DNA of 64,000 nt from Inquilinus sp. Marseille-Q2685 (GTDB lineage Bacteria > Pseudomonadota > Alphaproteobacteria > DSM-16000 > Inquilinaceae): assembly GCF_916619195.1 (NCBI RefSeq), contig NZ_CAKAKL010000011.1, positions 1 through 64,000 of the forward strand, read 5' to 3'. This document shows, piece by piece, positions 2,448-62,451 of the stretch. The notes below the pieces were generated by a model. It was not told where the DNA came from and ran no database searches. It saw nothing but the letters and a program-made list of their open reading frames with translations. Within the stretch, counting starts at the first letter, position 1. Every line of letters starts with the position of its first letter. Both the position numbers and the translations under genes were made by a program.

Positions 2448-3051
2448 CGTCTTTTCCCCTTCTCATCTTGATGGCACCGCCAGTGCCGGTGCGTTGATCA
2501 CAAAACGGATCACAGCCGCCGCAATAGGGCTGGCTTCATATTTAGATACTAATATTGCTATGCCAGGATCACACAGCGTCCTACGAGGACGGCGCCACGA
2601 TCCGTCGCGCTCGACGTGTCCACGGGAGACAGCCGCTCGGCGTCAATGACCCAACTGTCTGTATTGTGACCGACATGCGAGTGGCCCCAATTCTCGTCAG
2701 CGCCGGCTCTCTATGAACGAAGTCCTGTCAGCTGGCAATAGGGAACCGCAGCAATTTACGTAATTTTCAATAAACGATCCGGGTATTTTGATGCGGCCGA
2801 AGGCGCCCGGCATAGACTGTTATGAACGACGGTTTCAATGTCGGCCCCATTCGGCACCCGCGGGCCGCCCCCACCCGGCTGGAGAAGCGGCGCCCCGCGG
2901 CGAATCCCGCTGCGGTCCAGCCCCGGCAGGCGCCCAACAGCCCCCGCCAGAATGGAAGCATCAAATCCCGTCAGGCCGGATCTGGTCCGGACCTGTCCGC
3001 TACCGCCTGGACCTGGCGCCGCGGCGCGATTCGGGGCGCATCGATATGCGG
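2448..3051. other. Gene-free stretch between the RTX gene and fcl
   Basis: About 600 bases without a convincing gene. The part next to the RTX start (about 2510-2570) is AT-rich for this genome and contains TATTAGTATCTAAATAT on the minus strand, a plausible promoter region for the RTX gene. The GC-rich remainder has open frames on both strands but no recognisable protein and no good start signal. Confidence 0.4.
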
Positions 3052-4050: not shown

Positions 4051-4525
4051 TCCTGGCCTCTCCGTCCAAGCCTTTTCATTCCGATGTCTCATTGACTTAT
4101 ATTTCTTTTGTCTGATTTAATTTAAGTTCTACTTAGGCGCCCTTAATCGACCTGAGCACTTCGACAACAGAGATAGCGCGAATACGGCCGGCGACCAGCA
4201 TCGTCTTCTGCCGAGGGCGCAGCCCCCTTGCGCCGGCATCGCCGCTCCTGCCGCTTTCGCCCGCCATCCCAGGACGTCCCGGATGCGGCCCCTATTCCGC
4301 CGGGACGCCGAGAGCGGCGCCCGCATCGTTGCCGCCGCGGCACTTCGATGCCCCGGACAGACGCGGGAGTCCGGGCCACCCTGCCATGGCGGCCTGCGCG
4401 GAGTCGCCGAAGGTGCCGACGCCGGCCCGCCTCGTTGCTTTCCGTCATCCCGGGGATACGCTTGAGACCAGCGCTGCCTCCCTGGGAATTGCAGGGTGCG
4501 GCGCTCTCCGATCGAGGAAGGCCGG
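4051..4525. other. Intergenic region between divergent fcl and the sensor kinase
   Basis: Positions about 4085-4135 are strongly AT-rich against the genome background and probably hold the fcl promoter. The remainder is GC-rich with overlapping open frames on both strands whose translations are Arg/Pro-rich and have no family signature, so I call no gene there. Confidence 0.35.
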
Positions 4526-5944
4526 ATGACAGGTCCGCATGGGTCGACCGATCCCGTGTCTCGGGCGACACCGTTCAAGCTCGGCCGGCTCGCGACCGAG
4601 CTGCAGTGGCAGTCTCTGCTGCGGACCCTTCCCGTCGCCGTCTACATGACCGACCCGGAGGGCTGGATCACCTTCCACAACGACGCCGCGGTCCGGCTCT
4701 GGGGCGTCCGGCCCGAGATCGGCAAGGCCAGATACAACGGCGCCTGGAAGCTGTTCCGGCCGGACGGGACGCCCCTGCCGCACAGCCAGACGGCCTTGGC
4801 GCAGACGCTTCGCGCGAAACGTCCGGTGCTCGGCCTCGACACCATCGCCGAGCGCCCGGACGGCAGCCGGGTGCATTTCATCCCCTACCCGGCGCCGCTG
4901 TTCAGCGCCGCCGGCGAGCTGACCGGGGCCGTCAACATCCTGATCGACATCACCGAGCGGCACCGGGCGGAGCTGACGGCGCAGCGCCTCGCGGCCATCG
5001 TGGAATCCTCCGACGACGCCATCCTGGCGAAGGACCTCGAAGGCACGATCACGAGCTGGAACGGCGGCGCGCAGCGCCTTTTCGGCTATGCCGCCGAGGA
5101 GATGATCGGCAAGCCGATCCTGATCCTGGTTCCCCTCGACCGCCGCGACGAGGAAGCCCTCATCCTCGCGCGCCTGAGGGCGGGCGAACGCATCGACCAT
5201 CTCGAGACGGTGCGGCGTCGCCGGGACGGCAGCCTGGTCGAGGTCTCGCTGTCGGTGTCGCCCGTGAGGGATGCCAATGGCCGCATCGTCGGGGCCTCGA
5301 CGATCGTGCGGGACATCACCGAGCAGCGCCGGGCGCAGGAGCGGCAGGAGATGCTGCTCCGCGAGATGAACCACCGGGTGAAGAACCTGTTCGCGCTGAC
5401 CGGCGCCGTGGTCAATCTGAGTGGGCGGTCCAGCAGCACCGTCGAGCAGCTGGTCGAGGCCGTCCAGGGGCGCCTCGGCGCCCTGTCCCGGGCGCATGAG
5501 CTCACCCTCGCAGACCTCGATCGCAGGAAAGCCTCCACGCCGACCACGCTGCATGCGCTGATCCGGACGATCGTATCGCCCTATGAGGATCTTGCGGGGC
5601 AGCGGGTTTCGGTCTCAGGACCGGATGTCCCGATCGAGGGTCATGCCGTCACCGGCCTTGCGCTGGTCTTCCACGAGCTGGCGACCAACGCCGCGAAATA
5701 CGGCGCCCTGTCGGTTCCGGGCGGACAGGTCGAGATCAACTCGGCCACGAATGCGGACCGGCTCGATCTCAGCTGGGTCGAGCGCGGCGGCCCGCCGGTC
5801 GCGTCGGCGCCAAAGACGGCCGGCTTCGGAACGCGGCTCCTGGACAGCACGATCAAGGGGCAACTGCAAGGCAGCCTCACGCGGCGCTGGCGCCGCAGCG
5901 GGCTGGGCATTCGTATCACGCTCCCCCTCTCAGCCCCGAGATAG
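4526..5944 (+). CDS. PAS-PAS HWE-family sensor histidine kinase
   Basis: A cytosolic sensor kinase of 472 residues. Two PAS domains occupy roughly residues 20-145 and 150-270; each ends in the PAC-type ITERHRAE / ITEQRRAQ signature. The phosphoacceptor region is LLREMNHRVKNLFALTG with His283. The ATPase half has the HWE-type N box (HELATNAAKYGALS) followed by the W-x-E segment (LSWVERGGPPV) and GFGTRLL. HWE kinases are mainly alphaproteobacterial and often act in light, stress or general stress-response signalling. No membrane segment or response regulator gene is nearby, so it is an orphan kinase. The ATG at 4526 is preceded by GAGGAAGG; an upstream in-frame GTG (4496) lacks that spacing. 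Confidence 0.9.
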   Translation: MTGPHGSTDPVSRATPFKLGRLATELQWQSLLRTLPVAVYMTDPEGWITFHNDAAVRLWGVRPEIGKARYNGAWKLFRPDGTPLPHSQTALAQTLRAKRPVLGLDTIAERPDGSRVHFIPYPAPLFSAAGELTGAVNILIDITERHRAELTAQRLAAIVESSDDAILAKDLEGTITSWNGGAQRLFGYAAEEMIGKPILILVPLDRRDEEALILARLRAGERIDHLETVRRRRDGSLVEVSLSVSPVRDANGRIVGASTIVRDITEQRRAQERQEMLLREMNHRVKNLFALTGAVVNLSGRSSSTVEQLVEAVQGRLGALSRAHELTLADLDRRKASTPTTLHALIRTIVSPYEDLAGQRVSVSGPDVPIEGHAVTGLALVFHELATNAAKYGALSVPGGQVEINSATNADRLDLSWVERGGPPVASAPKTAGFGTRLLDSTIKGQLQGSLTRRWRRSGLGIRITLPLSAPR

Positions 5945-46491: not shown

Positions 46492-48255
46492 ATGATGCCC
46501 AAGATGACGGCGATGGAAGCGGCGGTGCATGTGCTGCGCAGCGAGGGGGTGGAGGTGGCGTTCGGCGTGCCGGGCGCGGCGATCCTGCCCTTCTACGAGG
46601 CGCTGAAGGACAGCGGCATCCGCCATGTGCTGGTGCGGCACGAGGAGGGCGGCACCCATGCCGCCGAGGGCTACACCCGCGCCCGCGCCGGGGCGATCGG
46701 CGTCTGCATCGGCACCTCCGGCCCGGCCGGCACCAACATGATCACCGGCCTGTACTCCGCCATCGCGGATTCGATCCCGATCCTGTGCATCACCGGCCAG
46801 GCGCCGCGCGCCAAGCTGCACAAGGAGGATTTCCAGGCCGTCGACATCGCCGCCATCGCCCGGCCGGTGACCAAATGGTCGGTCACGGTGATGGAGGGCG
46901 CCCAGGTGCCCTGGGTGTTCCGCCGCGCCTTCCAGATCATGCGCTCCGACCGGCCCGGCCCGGTGCATATCGACCTGCCGATCGACGTGCAGAAGGAGAT
47001 CATCGACTACGACCCCGAGGCGGACGCGCCGCTGCCGGTGTCGCGGCCGGCGCCGAGCCCGGCCGCCATCGCCCGCGCCGTCGACATGCTGCTGGCGGCG
47101 GAGAGGCCGCTGATCGTCGCCGGCGGCGGCATCATCAACGCCGAGGCCTCCGACCTGCTGGTCGAGTTCGCCGAGCTGGTGAACGTGCCGGTGGTGCCGA
47201 CGCTGATGGGCTGGGGCACGATCCCGGACGACCACCCGCTGAACGCCGGCATGGTCGGGCTGCAGACCCAGCACCGCTACGGCAACGCCACCTTCCTGCA
47301 GAGCGATCTGGTGCTGGGCATCGGCAATCGCTGGGCCAACCGTCACACCGGGTCGACCGACGTCTACACCAAGGGCCGCAGGTTCATCCATGTCGATATC
47401 GAGCCGACCCAGATCGGCCGGGTGTTCTGCCCGGATCTCGGCATCGTGTCCGACGCCCGGCTGGCCCTGCAGGCGCTGATCGCCGAGGCCCGCGGCCGCC
47501 GCCTGCCGAAGCGTGAGGCCTGGGTCGCCGCGATGCAGGAGCGCAAGCGCACCATGCTGCGCCGGACCGATTTCGACAACACCCCGATCAAGCCGCAGCG
47601 CGCCTTCCAGGAGATCAACGCCGCCTTCGGCCGCGACACCCGCTTCGTCACCGCCATCGGCCTGTACCAGATCGCCTCCGGCCAGTTCCAGAAGGTGTAC
47701 AAGCCGCGCAACTACATCGTCTGCGGCCAGGCCGGGCCGCTGGGCTGGGAGGTTTCGGCCTGCACCGGCGCCAAGCTGGCCGACCCGTCGGCCGAGGTGG
47801 TCGGCATCGTCGGCGACTATTCCCTGCAGTTCCTGATCGAGGAGCTGGCGGTGGCGGCGCAGTACCGCATCCCCTTCGTGCTGGTGGTGCTGAACAACGC
47901 CTATCTCGGCCTGATCCGCCAGGCCGAGCGCGGCTACAATATGGATTACGAGGTCCAGCTCTCGTTCCAGAACATCAACGCGCCGGAGATCGGCGATTAC
48001 GGCGTCGACCACATCAAGGCGGCGGAGGCCTTCGGCTGCATCGCCCGCCGGGTGTTCGACCCGGAGGAGATCGGCCCGGCGCTGCAATGGGCCCGCACCC
48101 GCGCCACCCAGGCCAGCCTGCCGGTGCTGGTCGAGATCATCACCGAGCGGGTGACCAACATCGCCATGGGGCCGGAGATCGACAAGGTCACCGAGTTCGA
48201 GGAGATCATCGACCTCGCCCCCGCCGCCGCGGCCCGCGAGCCGGAGACGGTGTAG
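46492..48255 (+). CDS. gcl: Glyoxylate carboligase (tartronate-semialdehyde synthase)
   Basis: A thiamine-diphosphate enzyme joining two glyoxylates into tartronate semialdehyde and CO2. The 587-residue protein follows the family exactly: [21 protein letters not shown] at the N-terminus (Val where other ThDP enzymes have the catalytic Glu), [21 protein letters not shown], and the ThDP motif [23 protein letters not shown] with [10 protein letters not shown]. Start at a tandem ATGATG after GGGAGGGC. Gene order gcl-hyi-glxR as in the E. coli allantoin locus. Confidence 0.96.
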
Positions 48256-48299
48256 CGACAGCGCCGCGCCCATCGCAGACAAAACGGCCGGGCCGGTGC

Positions 48300-48419
48300 C
48301 ACCCCCTCACCCGGAACCGCTGGCGCGGTTCCGACCTCTCCCCTGGGGGGAGGTGAACAAACCCTCTCCTTGGGGAGAGGGAGGGGCCCGGCCCGCTTGG
48401 GTCGGGAGGGTGAGGGGGC
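48300..48419. repeat. GC-rich inverted repeat (family D, copy 2)
   Basis: CCCCTCACCCGGAACCGCTG...GCGGTTCCGACCTCTCC through to GGGAGGGTGAGGGGG, same layout as 29329-29455 but with changed hairpin sequence. It lies between gcl and hyi. Confidence 0.75.
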
Positions 48420-48463
48420 GGCCGGGAACGGTCGATCCATCAACGGGAACCTGTGAGATCGCC

Positions 48464-49261
48464 ATGCCGCGCTTCGCCGCCAACCTCACCATGCTGTTCA
48501 ACGAGCATCCGTTCCTCGACCGTTTCGGCCGCGCCGCCGAGGCCGGCTTCGCCGAGGTCGAATACCTGTTCCCCTACCCCTATCCGAAGGAGGAGCTGGC
48601 CGAGCGGCTGCAGCGCCATGGCCTGACCCAGGTGCTGCACAACCTGCCGGCCGGCGACTGGGCCAAGGGCGAGCGCGGCATCGCCTGCCTGCCCGACCGC
48701 AAGGGCGAGTTCCAGGACGGCGTCGGCCTGGCCATCGACTACGCCGCCGCCCTGGGCTGCCGGCAGGTCAACTGCCTCGTCGGCAAGCGGCCGCCGGGCG
48801 TGGCCGAGACCGTGCTGGGCGACACGCTGGTGGACAATCTGCGCTTCGCCGCCAAGGCGCTGGGCGAGGTCGGCATCGACCTGCTGGTCGAGCCGATCAA
48901 CACCCGCGACATCCCGGGCTTCTTCCTCAGCGGATCGCAGCAGACGCTCGACCTGCTCGACGCGGTCGAGGCGCCGAACACCCGGCTGCAATACGACATC
49001 TACCACATGCAGATCATGGAAGGAGACCTGGGGCCGACGCTGCAGGCGCTGATGTCCCGCATCGGCCACATCCAGGTCGCCGACAATCCCGGCCGGCACG
49101 AGCCGGGCACCGGCGAGATCCACTACCCCTTCCTGTTCCGCCTGCTCGACGCGCTCGGCTATGCCGGCTGGGTCGGCGCCGAATACGTGCCGCAGGCCGG
49201 CACCGAGGCCGGCCTCGGGTGGTTCGCGCCGTACCGGGCCCGGGCCACCGTCGCGGCCTGA
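48464..49261 (+). CDS. hyi: Hydroxypyruvate isomerase
   Basis: A TIM-barrel enzyme interconverting hydroxypyruvate and tartronate semialdehyde. The 265-residue protein has the family N-terminus MPRFAANLTMLFNEHPFLDRF, GRQVNCL-type strand (CRQVNCLVGKRP), EPINTRDIPGFFLS with the metal-site Glu, YDIYHMQIMEGDL and QVADNPGRHEPGTGEI. It lies between gcl and glxR with repeat elements on both sides. Confidence 0.95.
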   Translation: MPRFAANLTMLFNEHPFLDRFGRAAEAGFAEVEYLFPYPYPKEELAERLQRHGLTQVLHNLPAGDWAKGERGIACLPDRKGEFQDGVGLAIDYAAALGCRQVNCLVGKRPPGVAETVLGDTLVDNLRFAAKALGEVGIDLLVEPINTRDIPGFFLSGSQQTLDLLDAVEAPNTRLQYDIYHMQIMEGDLGPTLQALMSRIGHIQVADNPGRHEPGTGEIHYPFLFRLLDALGYAGWVGAEYVPQAGTEAGLGWFAPYRARATVAA

Positions 49262-49267
49262 GCCGTT

Positions 49268-49399
49268 CCCCCTCACCCTCCCGCCGCCAACGCGGCGGGC
49301 CCCTCCCTCTCCCCGAGGAGAGGGGAACAGGAGCCTCGGCCCCTTCACCTCTCCTTGGGGAGAGGTCGAAATCGCGCAGCGATTTCGGGTGAGGGGGCG
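49268..49399. repeat. GC-rich inverted repeat (family D, copy 3)
   Basis: The element is inverted relative to copy 1: CCCCTCACCCTCCCGCCGCC...GGGCCCCTCCCTCTCC, then CACCTCTCC...GAAATCGCGCAGCGATTTCGGGTGAGGGGG. It shares the GAAATCGC hairpin with copy 1. Confidence 0.75.
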
Positions 49400-49432
49400 A
49401 GAGCTGCCCTCCGTCTTCCACAGGAGTTCGTC

Positions 49433-50335
49433 ATGAACGTCGCCTTCATCGGCCTCGGCATCATGGGCCGCCCCATGGCCGGCCATCTGATTGCCGCCGG
49501 GCACAGCCTGTTTCTCCACGACATCACCGGCGTGCCGGAGGAGCTGGCGGCCAAGGCCACGGCCGTGTCCTCCGCCGTCGAGGCCGCCCACCGGGCCGAG
49601 ATCGTCATCACCATGGTGCCCGACACGCCGCATGTGGAGGCGGCGCTGTTCGGCCCCGGCGGCGTCGCCGAGGGGCTGTCGCCGGGCAAGGTCGTGGTCG
49701 ATATGAGCTCGATCTCGCCGATCGCCACCAAGGGCTTCGCCGGGAAGGTCAACGCGCTGGGCTGCGACTATCTCGACGCCCCGGTCTCGGGCGGGGAGGT
49801 CGGAGCCAAGGCCGCCAGCCTGACCATCATGGTCGGCGGGCCGCAGGCCGCCTTCGACCGCGTCAAGCCCCTGTTCGAGGCGATGGGCAGGAACGTCACC
49901 CTGGTCGGCGGCAATGGCGACGGCCAGACCACCAAGGTCGCCAACCAGATCATCGTCGCCCTGACCATCGAGGCGGTGGCCGAGGCCCTGCTGTTCGCCG
50001 CCAAGGCTGGCGCCGACCCGGCGCGGGTGCGCCAGGCGCTGATGGGCGGCTTCGCGGCGTCGCGCATCCTCGAGGTGCATGGCGAGCGCATGATCCAGCG
50101 CAACTTCGCCCCCGGCTTCCGCATCGCCCTGCACCAGAAGGACCTGGCCCTGGCGCTGGACGGCGCCCGGTCGCTGGGCGTGCCGCTGCCGAACACGGCG
50201 GCGACGCAGCAGCTGCTGCACGCCGCGATCGCCCAGGGCGGCGCCGCCTGGGACCATTCCGCCATCCTCAAGGTGCTGGAACGCCAGGCCGATTTCGAAA
50301 TCGCCGGCCCGGCGGTGCGGCAGGACGCGGCATGA
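49433..50335 (+). CDS. glxR: 2-hydroxy-3-oxopropionate (tartronate semialdehyde) reductase
   Basis: It reduces tartronate semialdehyde to D-glycerate with NAD(P)H. The 300-residue beta-hydroxyacid dehydrogenase has the Rossmann start MNVAFIGLGIMGRPMAGHL, the substrate motif DAPVSGGEVGAKAASLTIMVGG, the catalytic Lys in GDGQTTKVANQIIV, and KDLALALDGARSLGVPLP. CAGGAGTTCGTC precedes the ATG at 49433. A glycerate kinase to finish the pathway is not in the window. Confidence 0.95.
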   Translation: MNVAFIGLGIMGRPMAGHLIAAGHSLFLHDITGVPEELAAKATAVSSAVEAAHRAEIVITMVPDTPHVEAALFGPGGVAEGLSPGKVVVDMSSISPIATKGFAGKVNALGCDYLDAPVSGGEVGAKAASLTIMVGGPQAAFDRVKPLFEAMGRNVTLVGGNGDGQTTKVANQIIVALTIEAVAEALLFAAKAGADPARVRQALMGGFAASRILEVHGERMIQRNFAPGFRIALHQKDLALALDGARSLGVPLPNTAATQQLLHAAIAQGGAAWDHSAILKVLERQADFEIAGPAVRQDAA

Positions 50336-50343
50336 CCAGATGG

Positions 50344-50490
50344 TCTCCCCCTCCCCTTGCGGGAGGGGGGCAGGGGGAGGGGTCTGCGCGCGTCTGCGCG
50401 CGAATGCTCAGGCTTCTTCCGTAGTCCTGCGCCGCCGGTCTCTTCGATCGAGACCCCCTCCCCCTACCCCCTCCCGCAAGGGGAGGGGAG
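50344..50490. repeat. GC-rich inverted repeat (family E, copy 2)
   Basis: CTCCCCCTCCCCTTGCGGGAGGGGG at the start and CCCCCTCCCGCAAGGGGAGGGGAG at the end with a unique middle. Same termini as 40428-40557. Confidence 0.75.
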
Positions 50491-50524
50491 AGTAGAAAGG
50501 CCATTCGCCGGAAATCTCGTCTGA

Positions 50525-50536
50525 AGCACTTTCAAA
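50525..50536 (-). promoter_or_regulatory. Candidate purine-regulon operator, site 3
   Basis: AGCACTTTCAAA on the plus strand is the exact complement of TTTGAAAGTGCT found ahead of puuD. It is 68 bases upstream of the 8-oxoguanine deaminase start. Confidence 0.45.
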
Positions 50537-50603
50537 TCGGCCTACCCCTCCCCTCCCGCCCGCTGGCTGCTAGGCTGACCCCGGATGGGACGGGAGGCGC
50601 GTG

Positions 50604-51944
50604 ATGCGGCTGTGGATCAAGGACCCGCTGGCGATCCTGGCGGACGGCGCCGAACGCGGCGTGGTGGTCGAGGACGGGCGGATCGCCGAGCTGGTGTCGG
50701 CCGGACGGGAACCCGCGGCGCCGGCCGACAGCGTGTTCGACGCCGGCAGCCACGTCGTGCTGCCCGGGCTGATCAACACCCACCACCATTTCTACCAGAC
50801 CCTCACCCGCGCTTTGCCGGCGGCGCTGGACCGCGAGCTGTTCCCCTGGCTGCAGGCGCTGTACCCGGTCTGGGCCCGGCTGGACCCGGAAGCGCTGCGC
50901 AGCGCCGTCACCGTGGCGATGGCGGAGCTGCTGCTGTCCGGCTGCACCGCCACATCGGACCACCACTACGTCTTCCCGGAGGGGCTGGAGCACGCCATCG
51001 ACATCGAGGTCGAGGTGGCGCGGTCGCTCGGCATCCGCGCCGTGCTGACCCGCGGCTCGATGAACCTGTCGGTGCGCGACGGCGGCCTGCCGCCGGACAG
51101 CGTGGTGCAGGACGAGGACGAGATCCTGGCCGACAGCGAGCGTCTGATCGCGGCGCATCACCAGCCCGGCGACGGCGCCATGGTGCAGATCGCCCTGGCC
51201 CCTTGCTCGCCCTTCTCGGTCACCGGGTCGCTGATGCGGCGGACGGCGGAGCTGGCCGAGCGGCACGATGTGCGGCTGCACACCCATTTGGCCGAGACCG
51301 AGGACGAGAACCGCTTCTGCGTCGAGACCTTCGGCTGCCGGCCGCTGGACTATCTGGAGCAGTGCGGCTGGCTGGGCCCCCGCACCTGGCTGGCGCACGG
51401 CATCCATTTCGACCAGGCCGAGATCGGCCGGCTGGCCCGGGCCGGCACGGCGGTGACGCATTGCCCCTGCTCGAACCAGGTGCTGGCCTCCGGCCACTGC
51501 CCGGTGCACGGGATGGAGCAGGCGGGGATGAGCGTCGGGCTCGGCGTCGACGGCTCCGCCTCGAATGACGGGTCGAACCTGATGCAGGAGGTGCGCGCAG
51601 CCTTCCTGCTGCAGCGGCACCACTACGGCGTCACCCGGATCAGCCACCGCGACGCGCTGCGCTGGGCCACCGCCGGCTCCGCCGCCTGCCTCGGCCGGCC
51701 GGATCTCGGCGTGATCGCGCCGGGCAGGCAGGCCGACCTGGCCCTGTTCGCGCTGGACGAGCTGCGCTTCGCCGGCCATGGCGACCCGCTGGCGGCGCTG
51801 GTGCTGTGCGGCGCGCACCGGGCCGATTTCGTCATGGTCGGCGGCGCCTGGCGGGTGCGGAACGGCGCCATTCCCGGCCTCGACCTGCCCCGGCTGATCC
51901 GCAGCCACCAGGCCCTGTCCGCCAGGATGCAGAACGGCCTTTGA
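50604..51944 (+). CDS. 8-oxoguanine deaminase
   Basis: An amidohydrolase deaminating 8-oxoguanine to urate, the direct entry of oxidised guanine into this pathway. The 446-residue protein has HxH metal ligands in LINTHHHFYQTLTRALP, LFPWLQALYPVWARLD (specific to this group rather than to atrazine chlorohydrolases), LHTHLAETEDENRFC, LAHGIHFDQAEI and GVDGSASNDGSNLMQE. Start ATG at 50604 after GGGAGGCGC. Urate is the substrate of PuuD, so this gene closes the pathway. Confidence 0.88.
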   Translation: MRLWIKDPLAILADGAERGVVVEDGRIAELVSAGREPAAPADSVFDAGSHVVLPGLINTHHHFYQTLTRALPAALDRELFPWLQALYPVWARLDPEALRSAVTVAMAELLLSGCTATSDHHYVFPEGLEHAIDIEVEVARSLGIRAVLTRGSMNLSVRDGGLPPDSVVQDEDEILADSERLIAAHHQPGDGAMVQIALAPCSPFSVTGSLMRRTAELAERHDVRLHTHLAETEDENRFCVETFGCRPLDYLEQCGWLGPRTWLAHGIHFDQAEIGRLARAGTAVTHCPCSNQVLASGHCPVHGMEQAGMSVGLGVDGSASNDGSNLMQEVRAAFLLQRHHYGVTRISHRDALRWATAGSAACLGRPDLGVIAPGRQADLALFALDELRFAGHGDPLAALVLCGAHRADFVMVGGAWRVRNGAIPGLDLPRLIRSHQALSARMQNGL

Positions 51945-51955
51945 GCCCGAGCCCC

Positions 51956-52007
51956 TTGCCGAACAGTCGTTCGATTCACTAAAATCTCCATTCGATAGAG
52001 TCGAACG
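51956..52007 (+). promoter_or_regulatory. Promoter and operator-like dyad of the TetR-Rieske gene
   Basis: TTGCCG (51956-51961), an 18-bp spacer and TAAAAT (51980-51985) form a likely promoter. An imperfect inverted repeat brackets it: CGTTCGATTC (51968-51977) and GAGTCGAACG (51998-52007), 9 of 10 positions matching. The right half also makes TTCGA-N5-TCGAA (51991-52005). The site would let the TetR domain of the downstream protein repress its own gene. Confidence 0.5.
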
Positions 52008-52025
52008 GCCGATCGGGAGGTTGGC

Positions 52026-53801
52026 ATGGACGACGGGATGGAGAGCCGGACGCGGGCGCGGCTGCCGCAGGATGCGCGGCGCGAGCAGCTGATCGACGCG
52101 GCGATCACCGCAATCGCCGAGCACGGCCTGTCGAACGTGACGCTGAGCAAGGTGGCCAGCCTGGCCGGGCTGACCGCCGGCATGGTCAATTTCCACTTCA
52201 AGTCGAAGCAGGACCTGCTGCAGGCCACGCTGGCCCGCATGGCCGAGACCTATCGCGGCCTGTGCGAGAGCGCCGTGGCCGCCGCCGGACGGGCGCCGGA
52301 GGAGGCGCTGATGGCGCTGGTCCGCGCCAGCTTCGACCCGCAGGTGGCGAGCCTGGAGCGGCTGGCGGTCTGGTACGCCTTCTGGGGCGAGAGCCGGGCC
52401 CGCGACGACTACATGGCGCTGGTCGCCTCCTCCGACCGCGCCTTCTATGAGGCCGTCCACGCGCTGATGGCGGAGCTGGCGGAGCGCGCCGACGCCCGGA
52501 TCGAGCTGCGCGCCGCGGCGCTGGGCCTGTGCGGCCTGGTCGACGCGCTGTCGCAGGAGGCGCTGGTGCAGCGCGAGGCCTTCGACTGGGACGACGCGGT
52601 CGACACCTGCCGCCGCTACCTGGCCAACCTGTTCCCGGCGGCGTTCGCCGCCCCGGCCCGGCTGCGCCTGGTGGCCGAGGCCGAGCCGGACGCGCCGGCC
52701 CTGCCGCCGACCCTGCCCGGCTGGACCTATGCCGATCCCGGCATCCACGCCGCCGAGGTCGCGCGCATCCACCGGCCGGCCTGGCACCTGGTGGCGCATG
52801 TCTCGGAGCTGCCCAACCCCGGCGACTACGTCACCTTCGAGGCGCTGGGCGAGCGCGCCTTCGTCATTCGTGGCGAAGACGGCGGAATCCGCGCCTTCCA
52901 CAATGTCTGCCGGCACCGCGCCCATGCCGTGCTGCAGGGCCGCGACGGACACTGCAGCGGGCTGATCCGCTGCCCCTACCACGCCTGGTGCTATGCCTGG
53001 GACGGGCGGCTGCGCGCGGTGGCGGCGGCGAAGACCTTCCCGGAGATCGACACCGCGGGCCTGGGCCTGCTGCCGCTGGACTGCGAGGTGTTCGCGGGAT
53101 TCGTCTTCCTGCGCTTCGAGGGCGGCGGCCCGTCGGTGGCCGAGCGCATGGCCCCCTACGCGGCGGAGCTGGCGGCGCACCGGATCGAGGAGATGGTGCC
53201 GCTTACCGATTACTGGATCGGCGAGATCGACGCCGACTGGAAGACCATCTGGGACAACTACCTCGAGGACTATCATTTCCCGACCGGCCATCCCGGCCTG
53301 TTCGGGCTGATGTCCGCCGCCTATGACCGCGAGCCGGACGACGACACCCGCACCATCCGCCTGAGCCACGCGCTGCGGCAGGATCCCGGCGGCTGGTCGA
53401 CCCGCGCCTATGCCCGGCTGCTGCCGGACGTGCCGCACCTGCCCGAGGCGCTGAAGCGGCGCTGGACCTATCTGTTCCTGTATCCGGGCGTGTCGCTGGA
53501 GCTGTATCCGGACCTGCTGGACTATTTCCACATCCTTCCGGCCGGGCCCGGCCGATCGATCCTGCGCTGGCGCGCCTATGCCCGGCCGGACGACCGCCGC
53601 GCCATGCGGCTGACCCGACGGCTGAACCTGCGGGTGAACAACCGGGTGCATGACGAGGACGCAGCGCTGATCCGCTCGGTCCAGCAGGGCCTGTCCGGCT
53701 CCGCCTACCGGGTCGGCGTGCTGGGCGAGAAGGAAGTAAACCTCCGCGCCTTCCAGGGCTGGATCCGGCGCGACGTGCCGGAGGCCGGGCAGCTGCGATA
53801 G
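52026..53801 (+). CDS. TetR(BetI-like)-Rieske oxygenase alpha subunit fusion
   Basis: A single 591-residue frame joining a regulator and an enzyme. Residues ~10-210 are a TetR protein of the BetI kind: HTH in LSNVTLSKVASLAGLTAGMV and NFHFKSKQDLL, then the BetI-type ligand domain (WYAFWGESRARDDYM, GLCGLVDALSQEAL). Residues ~225-591 are a Rieske non-heme iron oxygenase alpha subunit with [2Fe-2S] ligands C295-x-H297 and C316-x2-H319, and the mononuclear iron site NYLEDYHFPTGH (H417, H422) with an acidic ligand in VHDEDAAL (about 544-545). Start ATG follows GGGAGG. There is no stop or frameshift at the junction. No reductase gene is adjacent. Related oxygenases act on quaternary amines (glycine betaine, carnitine, choline-like); substrate here is unknown. 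Confidence 0.88.
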   Translation: MDDGMESRTRARLPQDARREQLIDAAITAIAEHGLSNVTLSKVASLAGLTAGMVNFHFKSKQDLLQATLARMAETYRGLCESAVAAAGRAPEEALMALVRASFDPQVASLERLAVWYAFWGESRARDDYMALVASSDRAFYEAVHALMAELAERADARIELRAAALGLCGLVDALSQEALVQREAFDWDDAVDTCRRYLANLFPAAFAAPARLRLVAEAEPDAPALPPTLPGWTYADPGIHAAEVARIHRPAWHLVAHVSELPNPGDYVTFEALGERAFVIRGEDGGIRAFHNVCRHRAHAVLQGRDGHCSGLIRCPYHAWCYAWDGRLRAVAAAKTFPEIDTAGLGLLPLDCEVFAGFVFLRFEGGGPSVAERMAPYAAELAAHRIEEMVPLTDYWIGEIDADWKTIWDNYLEDYHFPTGHPGLFGLMSAAYDREPDDDTRTIRLSHALRQDPGGWSTRAYARLLPDVPHLPEALKRRWTYLFLYPGVSLELYPDLLDYFHILPAGPGRSILRWRAYARPDDRRAMRLTRRLNLRVNNRVHDEDAALIRSVQQGLSGSAYRVGVLGEKEVNLRAFQGWIRRDVPEAGQLR

Positions 53802-53814
53802 ATCCATCGTCACC

Positions 53815-53877
53815 TTGACAGCTGCAGGCCAATGGCCGTATTGAACCGTCTGGTTGATCAACTTATCGGTTCAATAC
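53815..53877 (+). promoter_or_regulatory. Promoter with 40-bp nested dyad for the ArsR/AHSA1 pair
   Basis: TTGACA (53815-53820) and, 18 bases on, TATTGA (53839-53844) form a promoter. The -10 lies inside GTATTGAACCG (53838-53848), whose exact complement CGGTTCAATAC is at 53867-53877. The perfect palindrome GTTGATCAAC (53853-53862) sits at exactly the same centre (53857.5). The block ends one base before the GTG start of the ArsR gene, a textbook autorepression layout. Confidence 0.75.
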
Positions 53878-54228
53878 GTGTCGACGGATCCCCTCAGCCT
53901 CACCCTGGCGGCGCTCGCCGACCCCACCCGCCGGGCCATCCTGGCGCGGCTGGCCCAGGGCGAGGCTTCGGTCACCGAGCTCGGCGCGCCCTTCGCCATG
54001 AGCCTCACCGCCGTGTCCAAGCACCTCAAGGTGCTGGAGCGGGCCGGGCTGGTGACTCGCGGCCGCTCGGCCCAGTGGCGGCCCTGCCGGCTGCAGGCCG
54101 GGCCGCTGAAGGAGATCGCCGACTGGATCGAGCGCTACCGCCCGTTCTGGGACGCCGGCTTCGACCGGCTGGACGATTATCTGCGCCAACTGCAGGGCAA
54201 GGATTCCGATGACGACCGCATCCAATGA
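53878..54228 (+). CDS. ArsR family transcriptional regulator
   Basis: A 116-residue winged-helix repressor: LTLAALADPTRRAILARLAQGEASVTELG with the recognition helix in MSLTAVSKHLKVLERAGLV. It has no Cys/His metal site in helix 3, so it is not a classic metal sensor; this subgroup is normally co-transcribed with an AHSA1/SRPBCC gene, as here (20-bp overlap). I chose the GTG at 53878, just past the operator; a TTG at 53854 lies inside the dyad. The mRNA leader would be under 40 bases with no clear SD. Confidence 0.88.
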   Translation: MSTDPLSLTLAALADPTRRAILARLAQGEASVTELGAPFAMSLTAVSKHLKVLERAGLVTRGRSAQWRPCRLQAGPLKEIADWIERYRPFWDAGFDRLDDYLRQLQGKDSDDDRIQ

Positions 54229-54661
54229 CAGCCCGGAGACGGAGCTGGTCATCACCCGCGTCTTCGACGCGCCGCGCAGCCTGGTGTTCAAGGCCTGGAC
54301 CGAGCCCGAGCATCTGGCGCGCTGGCTGGGGCCGAAGGACTTCGGCGCCTCCGCGGTGCGGATCGACCTGCGGCCGGGCGGCGCCTGGAGCGCCGTGATC
54401 ACCTCGCCCGAGGGCAAGAGCTACGGCATGGCCGGAGTCTATCGCGAGATCGCGCCGCCGGAGCGGCTGGTCTTCACCTTCGCCTGGGACGAGGAGGAGG
54501 CGGAGCGGATGCTGATCGCCCTCACCTTCCGCGAGCGCGACGGCAGGACCGAGATGACCTTCCGCCAGACCGGCTTCCGGTCGGTGGAGAGCCGCGACAG
54601 CCATCGCGACGGCTGGAGCGAGTGCTTCGACAAGCTGCCGGCCGCTCTGGCGCAGATCTGA
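54209..54661 (+). CDS. SRPBCC (AHSA1-like) domain protein
   Basis: A 150-residue helix-grip protein of the AHSA1/CalC group, which binds small hydrophobic ligands. Family marks are ELVITRVFDAPRSLVFKAWTEPEHLARWLGP, DLRPGGAWSAVI and the C-terminal GWSECFDKLPAAL. Always found with an ArsR repressor in this arrangement; the ArsR gene overlaps it by 20 bases. AAGGATTCCG precedes the ATG. Biochemical role not known. Confidence 0.9.
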   Translation: MTTASNDSPETELVITRVFDAPRSLVFKAWTEPEHLARWLGPKDFGASAVRIDLRPGGAWSAVITSPEGKSYGMAGVYREIAPPERLVFTFAWDEEEAERMLIALTFRERDGRTEMTFRQTGFRSVESRDSHRDGWSECFDKLPAALAQI

Positions 54662-54681
54662 AGGATCGGGGAGGGAACGCG

Positions 54682-55095
54682 ATGAAACGCACCTATCGCG
54701 GCAGCTGCCATTGCGGCGCCGTGCGCTTCGAATGCGAGGCCGACCTGGCGGCCGGGACCAGCCGCTGCAACTGCTCGATCTGCGGCAAGGGGCGGTTCTG
54801 GAAGGCGATCGTGAAAGCGCCGGACTTCCACCTGCTGCAGGGCGAGGAGGCTCTGTCGGACTACCGGTTCGACGGCGCCGCGGGCGGCACCATCCACCAC
54901 CTGTTCTGCCGCCGCTGCGGCGTCAAGCCGTTCGGCCGCGGCCACATGGACGCGCTGGGCGGCACCTTCTACGCCATCAACATCGCCTGCCTGGACGATT
55001 TGACGCCCGAGGAACTGGCCGGGCTGCCGGTCCAGTACGAGGACGGCCGCACCGACCATTGGGAGCGGGCGCCGGCGGAGACGCGCCACCTGTAG
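54682..55095 (+). CDS. GFA/CENP-V family protein
   Basis: A 137-residue zinc protein: GSCHCGAVRFECEADL, RCNCSICGKGRFWKA and HHLFCRRCGVKPFGRG carry the zinc ligands. It is of the group whose C-terminus reads LDDLTPEELAGLPVQYEDGR. GGGGAGGGAACGCG precedes the ATG. Probably third gene of the ArsR/AHSA1 unit (20-base gap). Function unknown; glutathione-formaldehyde activity should not be assumed. Confidence 0.88.
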   Translation: MKRTYRGSCHCGAVRFECEADLAAGTSRCNCSICGKGRFWKAIVKAPDFHLLQGEEALSDYRFDGAAGGTIHHLFCRRCGVKPFGRGHMDALGGTFYAINIACLDDLTPEELAGLPVQYEDGRTDHWERAPAETRHL

Positions 55096-55977: not shown

Positions 55978-56823
55978 TTATGCCGAACCGCTGTCGGCCG
56001 CGGCGCGGCGGCTGTCGCGGGCCCTGCGGGCGTCGCGGCGGTTCAGGATCACGGCGCTGGCGATGACGAAGCAGGCCACCACCAGGATGATGATCGTCGC
56101 CAGGGCGTTGATGTCCGGCGTCAGCCCCAGCCGGACCTTGGAGAAGATCAGCATCGGCAGGGTGTTGGCGCCGGGGCCGGAGGTGAAGGTGGCGATCACC
56201 AGGTCGTCCAGCGACAGGGTGAAGGACAGGAGCCAGCCCGACACCATGGCCGGCGCCAGAAGCGGCAGGGTGATGTCGATCATCACCTGCCAGGGCCGGC
56301 TGCCGAGATCGGCCGCCGCCTCCTCGATCGACGCATCCATGTCGGCCAGGCGCGACTGCACCACCACGGCGACATAGGCCATGCAGAAGGTGACATGGGC
56401 GATGGTGATGGTCAGCGCGCCGCGCCCGGACGGCCAGCCGAACGCATCCTCCAGCGCCACGAACAGCAGCAGCAGCGACAGGCCGGTGATCACCTCCGGC
56501 ATCACCAGCGGCGCCGTGACCATGCCGGCCAGCAGCAGCCGGCCGCGGAACCGGCCGAACCGGGCCAGGGCGATGCCGGCCATGGTGCCGAGCGCGGTGG
56601 CGATGGTGGCGGAGACCGCGGCGATCTGCAGGCTGAGCAGCGCCGCGTCCATCACCTGCCGGTTGCCCCACAGCGCCGCGTACCACTTGGTCGAGAAGCC
56701 GCCCCAGACCGTCGCCAGCCGCGACTGGTTGAAGGAGAACACGATCATCGAGGCGATCGGCCCGTAGAAGAACACGAAGCCGGCCACCAGCCAGAGGGTG
56801 AGGAAGCGGGAGCGGCCTTTCAC
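55978..56823 (-). CDS. Polyamine-type ABC transporter permease (PotC/PotI-like)
   Basis: A 281-residue inner-membrane permease with six hydrophobic helices. The EAA loop is EEAAADLGSRPWQVMIDITLPLLAPA, and the C-terminal part LSLDDLVIATFTSGPGANTLPM is diagnostic of PotC/PotI (spermidine/putrescine) permeases. Start is a GTG. A REP element separates it from the upstream permease, which is unusual within such an operon. Last gene of the minus-strand binding protein-ATPase-permease-permease set. Confidence 0.92.
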   Translation of the reverse strand: MKGRSRFLTLWLVAGFVFFYGPIASMIVFSFNQSRLATVWGGFSTKWYAALWGNRQVMDAALLSLQIAAVSATIATALGTMAGIALARFGRFRGRLLLAGMVTAPLVMPEVITGLSLLLLFVALEDAFGWPSGRGALTITIAHVTFCMAYVAVVVQSRLADMDASIEEAAADLGSRPWQVMIDITLPLLAPAMVSGWLLSFTLSLDDLVIATFTSGPGANTLPMLIFSKVRLGLTPDINALATIIILVVACFVIASAVILNRRDARRARDSRRAAADSGSA

Positions 56824-56848
56824 GGCGCCGACTCCTCGCTTCCTTCAC

Positions 56849-56938
56849 TGTCATCCTCGGGCTTGACCCGAGGATCCAGAGGCTGCCGACGCCAGCGCCG
56901 GCGGCCCCTGGATTGCCGGGTCAAGCCCGGCAATGACA
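56849..56938. repeat. Two-arm REP-like element (family A, copy 5)
   Basis: Left arm CCTCGGGCTTGACCCGAGG, right arm TTGCCGGGTCAAGCCCGGCAA, both perfect but of different arm type. It lies inside the polyamine-transport operon between the two permease genes. Confidence 0.88.
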
Positions 56939-56977
56939 ATAAGGGGAAAGCGTTGATATCCCGAAGGCAGGGCCCCC

Positions 56978-57891
56978 TCATGCCTCCCCTCCCCGCGCCT
57001 GGCGGTTCTGGAACCACAGGATCGGCAGCACCAGGACCAGCAGCAGCACCACCGCCACGGCCGAGGCCACCGGCCAGTCGCGGTTCGAGTAGAACTCGGC
57101 GAACAGCACCTGGCCGATCATCGGGCTGGACGGGTTGCCCAGCAGCGCCGGGATCACGTATTCGCCGGTCGCCGGGATGAACACCAGCAGCGATCCGGCG
57201 ACGATGCCGGGCAGCGACAGTGGCAGGGTGACGTCGAGGAACACCCGCCAGGGCCGCGAGCCCAGGTCCATCGCCGCCTCGACCAGGCTCTGGTCCAGCT
57301 TCTCCAGCGTCACGTAGAGCGGCAGGATCATGAAGGGCAGGTAGGAGTAGACGATGCCGAGATAGACCGCGAACTCGGTGTTCATCATCTCGACCGGCCG
57401 GTCGAGGATGCCGCTCCAGACCAGGACGCCGTTGAGGATGCCCTGCTTGTTGAGGATCCCCATCCAGGCATAGATGCGCAGCAGGAACGAGGTCCAGAAC
57501 GGCAGGATCACGAACAGCAGCAGGATGTTGCGTGCGCCGGGCGAGGACCGGGCGATGCCGTAGGCGATCGGATAGCCGCAGAGCAGGCACAGCGCGGTCG
57601 AGATCAGTGCGATCTTGACCGAGTTCAGGTAGCCGGCGAGGTAGAGCCAGTCCTGGGTCAGGAACACGTAGTTGCGCAGCGAGGCGGTGATGGCAGGCCA
57701 TGAGCCCTCGCCCCATTCCAGCAGCGCCGAATAGGGCGGCCGCCCGACGATGCTCTGGGCCAGGCTGATCTTCAGCACGATCAGGAACGGCACCAGGAAG
57801 AACAGCACCAGCCAGGCCGTGGGCACGCCGATGATCAGGCCGCGCCAGGCATCGCCGACCCGGCGCAGGGCCCGGAGCCAGAGCGGCGCGG

Positions 57892-57895
<4 letters not shown>
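56978..57895 (-). CDS. Polyamine-type ABC transporter permease (PotB/PotH-like)
   Basis: A 305-residue permease with six helices. The EAA loop reads EAAMDLGSRPWRVFLDVTLPLSLPG, and FIPATGEYVIPALLGNPSSPMIGQ is characteristic of PotB/PotH. Its ATG overlaps the ATPase stop (ATGA). Confidence 0.92.
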
Positions 57896-59040
<1,145 letters not shown>

Positions 59041-59056
59041 CTACGCCGGTGCCGCG

Positions 59057-60160
59057 CTACTGCCCGGCCTTGATCTGGCTCCAGGCCCGGGTGCGCAGCC
59101 GCAGCGCGTCCTGCGGCAGGTCGGCCGGCACGTAGAGCTTCGCCCGCGTCGCCGCGTCCGGGTAGATCGCCGGGTTCTCCAGGACCTCCTTGTTCACGTA
59201 CTGCGCGGCGGCCTTGTTGGCGTTGGCGTAGTTGGTGAAGTTCGAGGCGGCGGCGATCACCTGGGGCCGCAGCATGTAGTTGATGAAGATCAGCGCGTTC
59301 TCGGGATGCGGCGCGTCGGCCGGGATCAGCCAGCCGTCGAACCAGGCCGGGCCGCCGGTGTCCGGCACCGAATAGGCCAGGTCGATCTTCACCCCCGCCT
59401 CCTCCGCCCGGCTGGCGGCGGTGGCGTAGTCGCCGGACCAGGAGAAGGCCAGGCACAGCTCCTGGTTCGGCAGCTGGTTCAGGTAGTTGGCGGAATCGAC
59501 CGCCTTGATGTACTGGCGCACCGGCTTGAACAGCGCCGCCGCGGCCTCGTAATCCTCGGCCTTCTGCGAATTGGGGTCGCGGCCCAGATAGGACAGCGCC
59601 ATCGGGATCATGTCGGTCGGCGATTCCAGGATCGAGATGCCGCAATCCGCCCATTTCGCCGCCAGATCGGGCTTGAACAGCATGTCGAGCGAGGTGACCG
59701 GCGCGTCGGGCATGCGCTGCCTGATCATATCGACATTGTAGGCGAAGCCGACCGTGCCCCACATATAGGGCACGAAGTACTCGTTGCCGGGGTCGTGGCC
59801 GGCGACGACCTTCAGGATCTCGGGGTCGAGATTGCCGTAGCCGCTCAGCTTCGACTTGTCGATCTTCCGGAACACCCCGGCCTTGACCAGAGGCGGGATC
59901 AGGTGCGAGCCGTGCAGCACCACGTCGTAGCCGGAATGGCCGGCCATCATCTTGGCATCGACGGTCTCGGACGCGTCATAGGTGTCGTAGACCACCTTGA
60001 TGCCGGTCTCGGCCTCGAAATCCTGGATCGTGGTCTCGCCGATATAGTCGACCCAGTTGTAGACGTTGACGACCTTCTCCTCCTGGGCCTGCGCCGCAGC
60101 GGCGCCGAGGAGGATGGCGGCCGCGGCCAGCAGCCGGATGGATCGGGGGGAACGCGTCAT
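59057..60160 (-). CDS. Polyamine-type ABC transporter substrate-binding protein (PotF-like)
   Basis: A 367-residue periplasmic protein. Signal peptide MTRSPRSIRLLAAAAILLGAAAAQAQ, then VVNVYNWVDYIGETTIQDFEAETGIKVVYDTYD, the PotF/PotD signature. YMWGTVGFAYNVD and INYMLRPQVIAAASNFTNYANAN also match PotF. First gene of the operon, with GAGGGAGCCAGGCG ahead of the ATG. Ligand probably putrescine, spermidine or another amine; some members bind other compounds. Confidence 0.92.
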   Translation of the reverse strand: MTRSPRSIRLLAAAAILLGAAAAQAQEEKVVNVYNWVDYIGETTIQDFEAETGIKVVYDTYDASETVDAKMMAGHSGYDVVLHGSHLIPPLVKAGVFRKIDKSKLSGYGNLDPEILKVVAGHDPGNEYFVPYMWGTVGFAYNVDMIRQRMPDAPVTSLDMLFKPDLAAKWADCGISILESPTDMIPMALSYLGRDPNSQKAEDYEAAAALFKPVRQYIKAVDSANYLNQLPNQELCLAFSWSGDYATAASRAEEAGVKIDLAYSVPDTGGPAWFDGWLIPADAPHPENALIFINYMLRPQVIAAASNFTNYANANKAAAQYVNKEVLENPAIYPDAATRAKLYVPADLPQDALRLRTRAWSQIKAGQ

Positions 60161-60280
60161 CGCCTGGCTCCCTCTGTCGCCTCACCTGCCGGCCGGTTGT
60201 CCTGTTCGCCGCGGCCGTCGGCACCTCTTATTCAGAGCCCGGTTCGCCGGGATTCTCCAGCGGATTCTTCACCTGAATTC

Positions 60281-61444
60281 CTACAGCCCGATCGTGCCCT
60301 TCAGCCCGCGCTTCAAGAGGCTGCCGGCGATGATCAGGCGCTGGATCTCACTGGTGCCCTCCCAGATCCGGTCGACCCGCAGCTCGCGGTTGAAGCGCTC
60401 GGCCACGTTCTCGCGCATGTAGCCGCGGCCGCCAAAGATCTGCACCGCCCGGTCGGCGACGCGGCCAGCCATCTCTGACGCCAGCAGCTTGGCCACCGAG
60501 CAGCGGGCATGCAGCGCCTTGACGTCCAGGCCGCGGTCATGCGCGGCCGCCGCCTCGTAGGTCACCAGCCGCGCGGCGTGCAGCTCGGCCACGCTGTCGG
60601 CCAGCATCGCCTGGACCAGTTGGAACCGCGCCATCGGCCCGCCGCCGATTGTCCGCTCCGCCGCGAACTCGGCGGCCGCCTCGATCAGCCGGTCGGCCGC
60701 GCCGCAGCAGCGCGCCGCGATCATCAGCCGCTCGCGCCGGAACCAGGCGTGGATGAAGCCCATTCCCTGGCCCTCGGCGCCGATCCGGTTGGAAGCATGC
60801 ACCCGCACCCCGTCGAAGCGCAGCACCGGGTGGTGGTGGCGGTAGCTGTGGGTGTAGGCCGGGCTGCGAACGGTGCTGAGCCCCGCGGCCGGCATCTCGA
60901 CGAAGAACAGGGCGTGGCCGCCATCGGTCCTGGCCTGGACGATCACCGTGTCGGCCAGGTTGGCGCTGGTGACGTGCCATTTCTCGCCGTCGATGACGTA
61001 GTCGTCGCCGTCCTGCCGCGCCGTGGTGGCGATGTCGTCGACATCGGAGCCGGCGCCCTCCTCCGTCACCGCGGTGCAGACATGCCGCTCGCCCCGCATC
61101 AGCGGCAGGACGAAGCGCTCGATCTGGTCCGGCGAGCAGGCCTCGAACATCCAGGACTGCGCCTCGCCGCAGCACCAGGCCAGGGCGTTGGTGACGCGGC
61201 CGGTCTGCTCCGCGATCGCCGCCTGGTCGAGCAGCGGCAGCTGCAGCCCGCCATGGCGCTGCGGCGCGTCGATCCGCGACAGGCCGAGCTCGAGCGCCAG
61301 CCGCTCGTGCCGGGCCGCGACCTCGGCCGGGATCTCGCCGCCGGCCAGCTCGGCCTCCACCTCCCACGGGATCAGCTCGGCCTCGACGAAGCGGCGGACC
61401 CTGTCCTGCCAGCCGCGGGCGCTGTCAGGGAGCGTGAAGCTCAT
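60281..61444 (-). CDS. Acyl-CoA dehydrogenase family protein
   Basis: A 387-residue FAD flavoprotein: AVTEEGAGSDVDDIATTARQ, DGEKWHVTSANLADTVIV, and the C-terminal catalytic-base segment RVDRIWEGTSEIQRLIIAG. It would introduce an alpha-beta double bond into an acyl-CoA or a related substrate. It lies between the polyamine-type importer and the TetR gene on the same strand, so it is probably part of the same catabolic module. Substrate unknown. Confidence 0.9.
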   Translation of the reverse strand: MSFTLPDSARGWQDRVRRFVEAELIPWEVEAELAGGEIPAEVAARHERLALELGLSRIDAPQRHGGLQLPLLDQAAIAEQTGRVTNALAWCCGEAQSWMFEACSPDQIERFVLPLMRGERHVCTAVTEEGAGSDVDDIATTARQDGDDYVIDGEKWHVTSANLADTVIVQARTDGGHALFFVEMPAAGLSTVRSPAYTHSYRHHHPVLRFDGVRVHASNRIGAEGQGMGFIHAWFRRERLMIAARCCGAADRLIEAAAEFAAERTIGGGPMARFQLVQAMLADSVAELHAARLVTYEAAAAHDRGLDVKALHARCSVAKLLASEMAGRVADRAVQIFGGRGYMRENVAERFNRELRVDRIWEGTSEIQRLIIAGSLLKRGLKGTIGL

Positions 61445-61487
61445 GGCACGGTGCCTCCTCGTCCTCGCAGCGACCCACTCCCTTTCC

Positions 61488-61577
61488 TGTCATTGCCGGG
61501 CTTGACCCGGCAATCCAGGGGCGGCCAGCACCGCTCTCGGTGGCCCCTGGATCCTCGGGTCAAGCCCGAGGATGACA
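61488..61577. repeat. Two-arm REP-like element (family A, copy 6)
   Basis: Left arm TTGCCGGGCTTGACCCGGCAA, right arm CCTCGGGTCAAGCCCGAGG, i.e. the same two arm types as copy 5 in the opposite order. It lies between the acyl-CoA dehydrogenase start and the TetR gene. Confidence 0.88.
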
Positions 61578-61589
61578 GTGAGGAGAGGA

Positions 61590-62258
61590 TCACCCCCTCT
61601 CCTCCTCGCCATCACTCAGGACCGGGCCGTCCCGGGTGAAGTGCCGGGGGAAGACCGAGACCAGCATCTCGACCGCGCAGGCCCGGGCGTCCTCGCGGCC
61701 GAACTCCTTCGGCCCCATCATCACATGCAGCCACAGCCCTTCCAGCAGCCCGTTCAGGCTGCGGGCCAGCAGGTCCGGCGACTGCCCCGGCGCCGCCAGC
61801 TCGCGGCACAGGGTCAGCAGAGTCAGGTGGTAGTCCTGGTCGTTGGCGCTGCACAAGGCACGGTAATGCGGCCTGGTCTTGGCCTCGCCCCAGAAGGCGC
61901 ACCAGGCGGCGATCTTGCGCGGGTTGCAGATGCGGCGGTCGAAATCGGCCAGGACCAGCGCCCACAGCTTCTCCGCCGCGGTCGGCCCGGCCTCGTGCAA
62001 GGCGCGGCGCCAATGGGCGCGGTACTCGTCGGACATGTAGCGCAGCGTCTCGACGAGCAGCTTCTCCTTGCTCTCGAAATGGAAGTTGACGATGCCGCGC
62101 GACAGGCCGGCGCCGTCGGCGACCACGGCCATCGTCGTCTCCTCGTAGCCGCGCCTGGCGATGGCGTCGATCGTCGCCTCGATCAGCTCCTGCCGCCGCA
62201 GCTCCTTCGACTGCCGCCGGCCTCCGTTCACCTTCCGCGCGGCCTGGCCTTCGGCCAT
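61590..62258 (-). CDS. BetI-like TetR family regulator
   Basis: A 222-residue regulator: ELRRQELIEATIDAIARRGYEETTM, HTH in VVADGAGLSRGIVNFHFESKEKLL, and BetI-type effector domain (KIAAWCAFWGEAKTRPHYRAL, SLNGLLEGLWLHV). BetI proteins respond to choline-like amines. I chose the ATG at 62258, at family length; the frame extends upstream into the operator region. Divergent from the aminotransferase, with two palindromes between them. Confidence 0.9.
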   Translation of the reverse strand: MAEGQAARKVNGGRRQSKELRRQELIEATIDAIARRGYEETTMAVVADGAGLSRGIVNFHFESKEKLLVETLRYMSDEYRAHWRRALHEAGPTAAEKLWALVLADFDRRICNPRKIAAWCAFWGEAKTRPHYRALCSANDQDYHLTLLTLCRELAAPGQSPDLLARSLNGLLEGLWLHVMMGPKEFGREDARACAVEMLVSVFPRHFTRDGPVLSDGEEERG

Positions 62259-62317
62259 CGGCACCCCCGTCAAATCGCCACAAAAGCCTAGCATCGGCGG
62301 AGGTCTCTGGGAAGATG

Positions 62318-62360
62318 TTGAATGGACGTCCAGCAAGTTTCTAATTGAACGTTCATTCAA
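62318..62360. promoter_or_regulatory. Two BetI/TetR-type operators
   Basis: Perfect palindromes TGGACGTCCA (62323-62332) and TGAACGTTCA (62346-62355) share a TGrACGTyCA core and wider TTGAA..TTCAA-type flanks (62318-62336 and 62344-62360). Their centres are 23 bp apart. They lie between the divergent TetR and aminotransferase genes and so should control both. Confidence 0.7.
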
Positions 62361-62451
62361 CAAGATGGACAGGATGGGCCCTGCCGTGCCATTCTGGGCC
62401 TCGACATCGCGGCATCAGAACCGCCGGACCAACGACACAAGGACCGCTGCC

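Follow-up and report, generated by a model that had tools for sequence, protein, structure and literature searches.

Why should a transcriptional regulator and an oxygenase be made as one protein, and does each half still have a job there? This question is raised by a gene in a stretch of 64,000 nucleotides (hereafter, the window; positions 1 to 64,000 of contig NZ_CAKAKL010000011.1) from Inquilinus sp. Marseille-Q2685. We compared the gene and its upstream region with those of other genomes of the genus, and with fused, split and damaged relatives elsewhere.

A TetR regulator and a Rieske oxygenase in one frame

The gene is a single frame of 591 codons plus stop, without an internal stop codon. 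The initial annotation had read it as a complete TetR regulator continuing into a complete Rieske oxygenase alpha subunit, and both the translation and the Pfam scores, all above their cut-offs, bear this out (Table 1); the TetR_N score places the N-terminal part in the TetR family. The Rieske cluster ligands C295, H297, C316 and H319 and the iron histidines H417 and H422 had been identified correctly. With D545, which we take to be the third iron ligand, these residues make up the Cys2His2 and 2-His-1-Asp motifs of a Rieske oxygenase alpha subunit, and E414 stands at the bridge position. The TetR part has a third-position GC content of 0.971, the linker 1.000 and the enzyme 0.908.

Table 1 Features of the fused gene and its upstream region, with positions given in the window
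Feature	Position	Residues	Strand	Evidence or remark
Block absent from one genus genome (G003): promoter, operator and fused gene	51945..53812 (ends approximate)		+	comparison with G003
Sigma-70-like promoter TTGCCG-18-TAAAAT	51956..51985		+	one match; shuffled sequences average 0.1
Candidate repressor half-site CGTTCGA, between -35 and -10	51968..51974		+	half-site scan
Palindromic candidate operator CATTCGA-N5-TCGAACG, just past -10, 19 bases	51989..52007		+	pattern scan
Ribosome binding site GGGAGG	52015..52020		+	read from sequence
Fused TetR-Rieske oxygenase gene	52026..53801		+	open frame, Pfam
TetR_N helix-turn-helix (HTH)	52089..52226	22-67	+	Pfam 42.1 bits, cut-off 24
TetR_C_6 BetI-type ligand domain	52296..52634	91-203	+	Pfam 54.1, cut-off 27
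Linker	52638..52724	205-233	+	pN/pS 0.363; model pLDDT <50 at 212-214
Rieske [2Fe-2S] domain	52782..53039	253-338	+	Pfam 66.1, cut-off 20.3
Ring_hydroxyl_A catalytic domain	53223..53777	400-584	+	Pfam 122.4, cut-off 24.9

The AlphaFold2 model of the protein had a mean pLDDT of 92.6 and a pTM of 0.67, with a break in confidence within the linker. The best 50 of 1489 PDB fold matches were Rieske oxygenases, led by the carnitine monooxygenase oxygenase subunit CntA, and covered the enzyme half only (TMq ~0.5); a sequence search also matched TetR structures, the best being 3e7q. Across five genus members (L033 counted from residue 22 on), both halves are maintained by purifying selection, as judged from pN/pS values of 0.119 in the TetR part and 0.183 in the enzyme, and the linker has the highest value of the parts.

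Other fusions, split pairs and damaged enzymes

The TetR-Rieske architecture is not unique to the window and recurs at other loci. Among 109 loci examined, 37 frames carried both halves, including nine from the genus (five genomes, four of them represented twice), six other intact fusions (L034, L035, L036, L059, L074 and L083) and 22 with damaged metal sites. A sample of the class, in which two of 385 genomes, the window's own included, had a full-length intact match (E up to 1e-80, at most three candidates scored per genome), added L114 as a seventh intact fusion beyond the genus. The seven are 35-63% identical to the window protein. At L114 (positions 1405-4577) a separate Rieske oxygenase gene comes immediately after the fused gene, perhaps as a tandem duplicate (support only 64).

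The two families were also found as separate genes at L037, L038, L039 and L075, TetR first and Rieske second on one strand. In three of these pairs (L037, L039 and L075, Rhodospirillales), the TetR stop and the start of the second gene are at most some tens of bases apart. They share families, order and strand with the window fusion, and their enzymes and TetR proteins are 46-50% and 40-43% identical to the respective window halves, but they differ from it in having a stop and a new start between two genes. The window linker connects a TetR end like that of the split pairs to the enzyme start TLPGWTY.

Intact fusions were defined by their ligands ahead of the phylogenetic analyses, and L114 was added afterwards. 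In the first enzyme tree, the genus, L059 and L034 (and L035, support 91) grouped with the split genes (support 95), L036, L083 and L074 formed a second group, also well supported, and a third consisted of the damaged-enzyme proteins; in the second enzyme tree, L035 fell outside the window clade. A single clade of all ten intact fused rows was rejected (p-AU 5.5e-9), and in the TetR tree, too, the intact fusions did not come together. Fusion, or fusion followed by fission, therefore seems to have occurred more than once, with the number of events left unfixed by these quick trees and their long branches.

The 22 damaged-enzyme fusions (L040-L043, L045-L047, L049, L054, L055, L061-L070, L072 and L107) have kept the TetR half. 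Among the 19 aligned members, both cluster cysteines are retained throughout (C295 and C316, 19 each), as is H319 in 18 and H297 in five, while H417 remains in one and H422 in none; 14 have Trp at position 412. The model of L042 (mean pLDDT 86.3) gave stachydrine demethylase (Stc2) and CntA as its best PDB matches. At least one free-standing Rieske frame lies in the fetched stretch at 15 of the 22 loci, tail-to-tail with the fused gene at 14 and head-to-head at L046, and the gap is <100 bases in ten cases and 1.5-3.4 kb in five; none was seen in the fetched stretch of the other seven loci. In our interpretation, these proteins derive from oxygenases that have become sensors. No member of this class was found in 397 other genomes sampled across the phylum (E up to 1e-40, at most three candidates scored per genome), the one match being the window protein.

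Two damaged-enzyme fusion genes (L066:6972-8819 and L108:4866-6601) are apparently split by a stop or a frameshift. A protein of ~190-220 residues, HD-domain-like by eye, recurs near L043, L045, L054, L062, L070, L099 and L103, and the one member tested (L062:961-1614) had no NCBIfam match.

By analogy, the oxygenase half of the window protein could itself be a second ligand- or redox-sensing domain for TetR, with its enzymatic role lost in vivo. Such a course would fit a clade that has shed its iron histidines and kept its cysteines, its fold (in the one member modelled) and its TetR half, frequently beside a free-standing Rieske frame. Against it, every ligand is present in the window protein and in the other intact fusions, the enzyme half is under the constraint given above, and the fused gene gave the sole Rieske match on its contig in a whole-genome search. 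We regard the sensor-only reading as unlikely for the window protein. A wider and still doubtful proposal is that the fusions form a recurrent class, in which DNA binding by TetR would depend on the enzyme half, on whether substrate is bound there or on its iron or oxygen state, and the clade with the dead iron site would be its end point, a pure sensor.

Constraint, promoter and presence as one unit

It had also been suggested that the TetR half merely serves oligomerisation or substrate presentation, and along the same line it could be a relic or an oligomerisation tag on an ordinary oxygenase, many relatives of the enzyme half being free-standing. Residues 18-70, which include the HTH, had 0 nonsynonymous against 60 synonymous pooled pairwise differences (pN/pS 0.000) among the five genus members, and this is a poor fit with either role. 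The half-sites in the promoter and the recurrence of this domain order across clades also speak against a relic, which we consider improbable.

Just upstream of the gene, 65 of the 72 columns from -72 to -1 before the ATG were invariant in an ungapped comparison of four genus members. Only 11 of 88 were invariant from -160 to -73, because two genus members carry different DNA there, between the gene for 8-oxoguanine deaminase and the promoter of the fused gene. The conserved part, within which the initial annotation had pointed to 51956-52007, includes a sigma-70-like promoter with a candidate half-site inside it and a candidate palindromic operator at its end (Table 1).

The half-site, generalised as CRTTYRA, presumably resembles the BetI site; a citable consensus for the BetI operator was not found in the literature searched. 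It was detected upstream of all eight intact fused loci, with 16 sites against 1.55 expected from shuffles (110 bases upstream, the genus counted once, overlapping sites included and start codons picked by rule). Sequences upstream of two split pairs and of five of the eight fused genes had been viewed before the motif was defined; the three loci that had not been viewed (L035, L036 and L114) account for seven of the 16 sites. The half-site occurs in two of six split pairs (0.89 expected) and in one of 20 upstream regions of damaged-enzyme loci (1.34 expected), and the operator argument is therefore limited to the intact fusions. For comparison, the regions upstream of the remaining predicted genes at seven of the intact fused loci, as delimited by crude gene calls, contained it in 11 of 86 cases.

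The full palindrome CRTTCGA-N5-TCGAAYG has two perfect places in the 7.29 Mb genome, one being the window site and the other at G000:C2:903048-903066 (L130), where the open frames pointed to no clear target. With up to one mismatch there were seven places in the genome versus four for the reversed control. With up to two mismatches the window had three matches (mean of 1.13 in shuffles, at least three in 10 of 100), none of them by its Pot-like operon. A regulon under the palindrome was rejected on these counts.

The fused protein was detected in five of six genus genomes, identical in its own and 95-96% identical in the others. The frames are full-length or nearly so in G001, G002 and G005, and that in G004 is truncated where its contig ends; the order's remaining 11 genomes had no match at 1e-70. 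In the sixth genus genome, G003, no full-length match was found anywhere. The upstream deaminase is kept there (93% identical) and the downstream DNA resembles window 53832-55095, and only ~25 bases separate the deaminase stop from a TTGACA that precedes an ArsR gene. This comparison indicates that promoter, operator and fused gene are gained or lost as one piece in the genus. Presence or absence as a unit, together with candidate half-sites at the gene's own promoter, lends support to self-repression, a possibility that the initial annotation had raised.

A functional link to the upstream 8-oxoguanine deaminase was rejected, as this gene is not adjacent to the listed fused relatives outside the genus and is separated from the promoter by different DNA in two genus members. 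The deaminase ends a run of genes (window 46492-51944, + strand) for a thiamine-diphosphate enzyme, a xylose-isomerase-like protein and a hydroxyacid dehydrogenase, which look like a glyoxylate and purine breakdown cluster. A record named Mycobacterium sp. KBS0706 (L030, NZ_VCCH02000001.1) also encodes a fused protein, 96% identical, and its name looks wrong. In a search for plasmid-borne copies, none of 992 matching records had one place covering 80% of the query.

The one frame might still give rise to two products, a repressor and an enzyme, through an internal start or through cleavage in the linker region, which is the least constrained part of the gene and includes the poorly ordered stretch of the model. 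No supporting codon with a ribosome-binding site was identified for such a start: codons 185-300 of the window gene include no ATG, the conserved GTG at 216 lacks a purine-rich ribosome-binding stretch 5' of it, and a second conserved GTG, at codon 256, lies within the Rieske domain. A second product from internal initiation is therefore unlikely, and we give little credence to two products in general. A single polypeptide, as initially proposed, is supported by the junction being kept in five of the six genus genomes. An assembly or sequencing error joining two genes, or homologues that are always split, is effectively ruled out, as the same frame occurs in those genus genomes (incomplete at a contig end in one) and at seven more distant intact loci.

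A possible self-repressing oxygenase and its known counterparts

The reading that we favor, at a probability of roughly 55%, is that the window protein is a self-repressing oxygenase whose substrate resembles a quaternary amine. Two TetR halves, paired as a dimer, would occupy the palindrome and the half-site within their own promoter and hold the gene down. The substrate or a close analogue would enter the BetI-type pocket, the protein would leave the DNA and more of it would be made. The same polypeptide would then oxidise the substrate via its Rieske and mononuclear iron centres, served by a reductase encoded elsewhere, and once the substrate was exhausted the TetR halves would switch the gene off again. 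TetR regulators work as dimers. The nearest oxygenase of solved structure, CntA, is an alpha-3 trimer (PMC7948474), and by analogy the two together lead us to expect a hexamer-like assembly.

No gene for a reductase was recognised next to the fused gene. Elsewhere in the genome there are six FAD_binding_6 places, one of them (C9:236035) near another Rieske match, at C9:234763. Pot-like ABC gene clusters were found at 40 examined loci, including the window, where the cluster lies ~2-6.4 kb from the fused gene on the opposite strand (55981-60160). It belongs to a longer run on that strand (55981-62363), which also takes in a gene of acyl-CoA dehydrogenase type and another TetR gene, whose product shares ~35% identity with the TetR half of the fusion. 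Neighbors in the wider set also include aminotransferases, FAD oxidoreductases, FadH/OYE-like flavoproteins and acyl-CoA dehydrogenases, with MttB-like proteins near three loci; these labels come from reading and from ten representatives, all of which stayed below the curated cut-offs of NCBIfam. As the neighboring genes differ outside the genus, any particular substrate is a guess.

On sequence grounds, a quaternary ammonium compound or an N-methylated amine is the likeliest substrate. The best PDB folds for the window model are CntA and stachydrine demethylase, and by this structure and sequence search these group V enzymes, which act on quaternary ammonium compounds, are the nearest solved relatives of the protein. 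The resemblance to CntA (PDB 6y8j and 6zgp) extends over the fold (TMt 0.84-0.86 for CntA chains), the Rieske ligands, the Glu at the bridge position and a Tyr, Y412, at the position of CntA Y203, an aromatic residue there being the mark of clade Va. Unlike CntA, to which it is 24-26% identical in structural alignments, the window protein has a TetR regulator attached at its N-terminus. Y203 of CntA is described as the pi-cation residue and E205 the bridge (PMC7948474, PMC10952381), and a Cys-X-X-Cys pair is noted beside the iron in some group V enzymes (PMC10952381). This pair is absent from the window protein, which has D415 and F418 at those positions in the alignment with CntA. The alignment of Y412 with Y203 and of E414 with E205 points to a quaternary amine for the window protein and to nothing beyond that; the argument does not extend to L036, L074 and L083, which have Asp at the Y203 position. 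The score for the GbcA glycine betaine monooxygenase equivalog of NCBIfam was 107.3, the cut-off being 670.

Among the literature matches listed, from a collection with few subscription journals and no bioRxiv preprints, none described a TetR-Rieske fusion. With a functional oxygenase attached to a repressor that has a ligand pocket of its own, the sensing, expression and turnover of one substrate would be united in one molecule, which could move as a single gene. Split pairs, intact fusions and damaged-enzyme fusions side by side provide a series for studying the passage from enzyme to sensor, and with the candidate operators a first test would be simple.

The two halves and their union each have known counterparts. 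The TetR half resembles BetI-type repressors in having TetR_N and TetR_C_6 above their cut-offs, but it falls short of the BetI equivalogs (105.8 of 118 bits for PRK00767 and 99.2 of 201.3 for TIGR03384) and has an enzyme attached. Enzymes that control their own expression are known: PutA, in which an enzyme is joined to a DNA-binding domain, represses its own gene. Enzyme folds used as sensors are known as well, from the MocR/GabR regulators, which likewise join an enzyme fold to a DNA-binding domain. PutA uses a ribbon-helix-helix and MocR/GabR a GntR winged helix, each with another enzyme, whereas the window protein joins a TetR repressor to a Rieske oxygenase.
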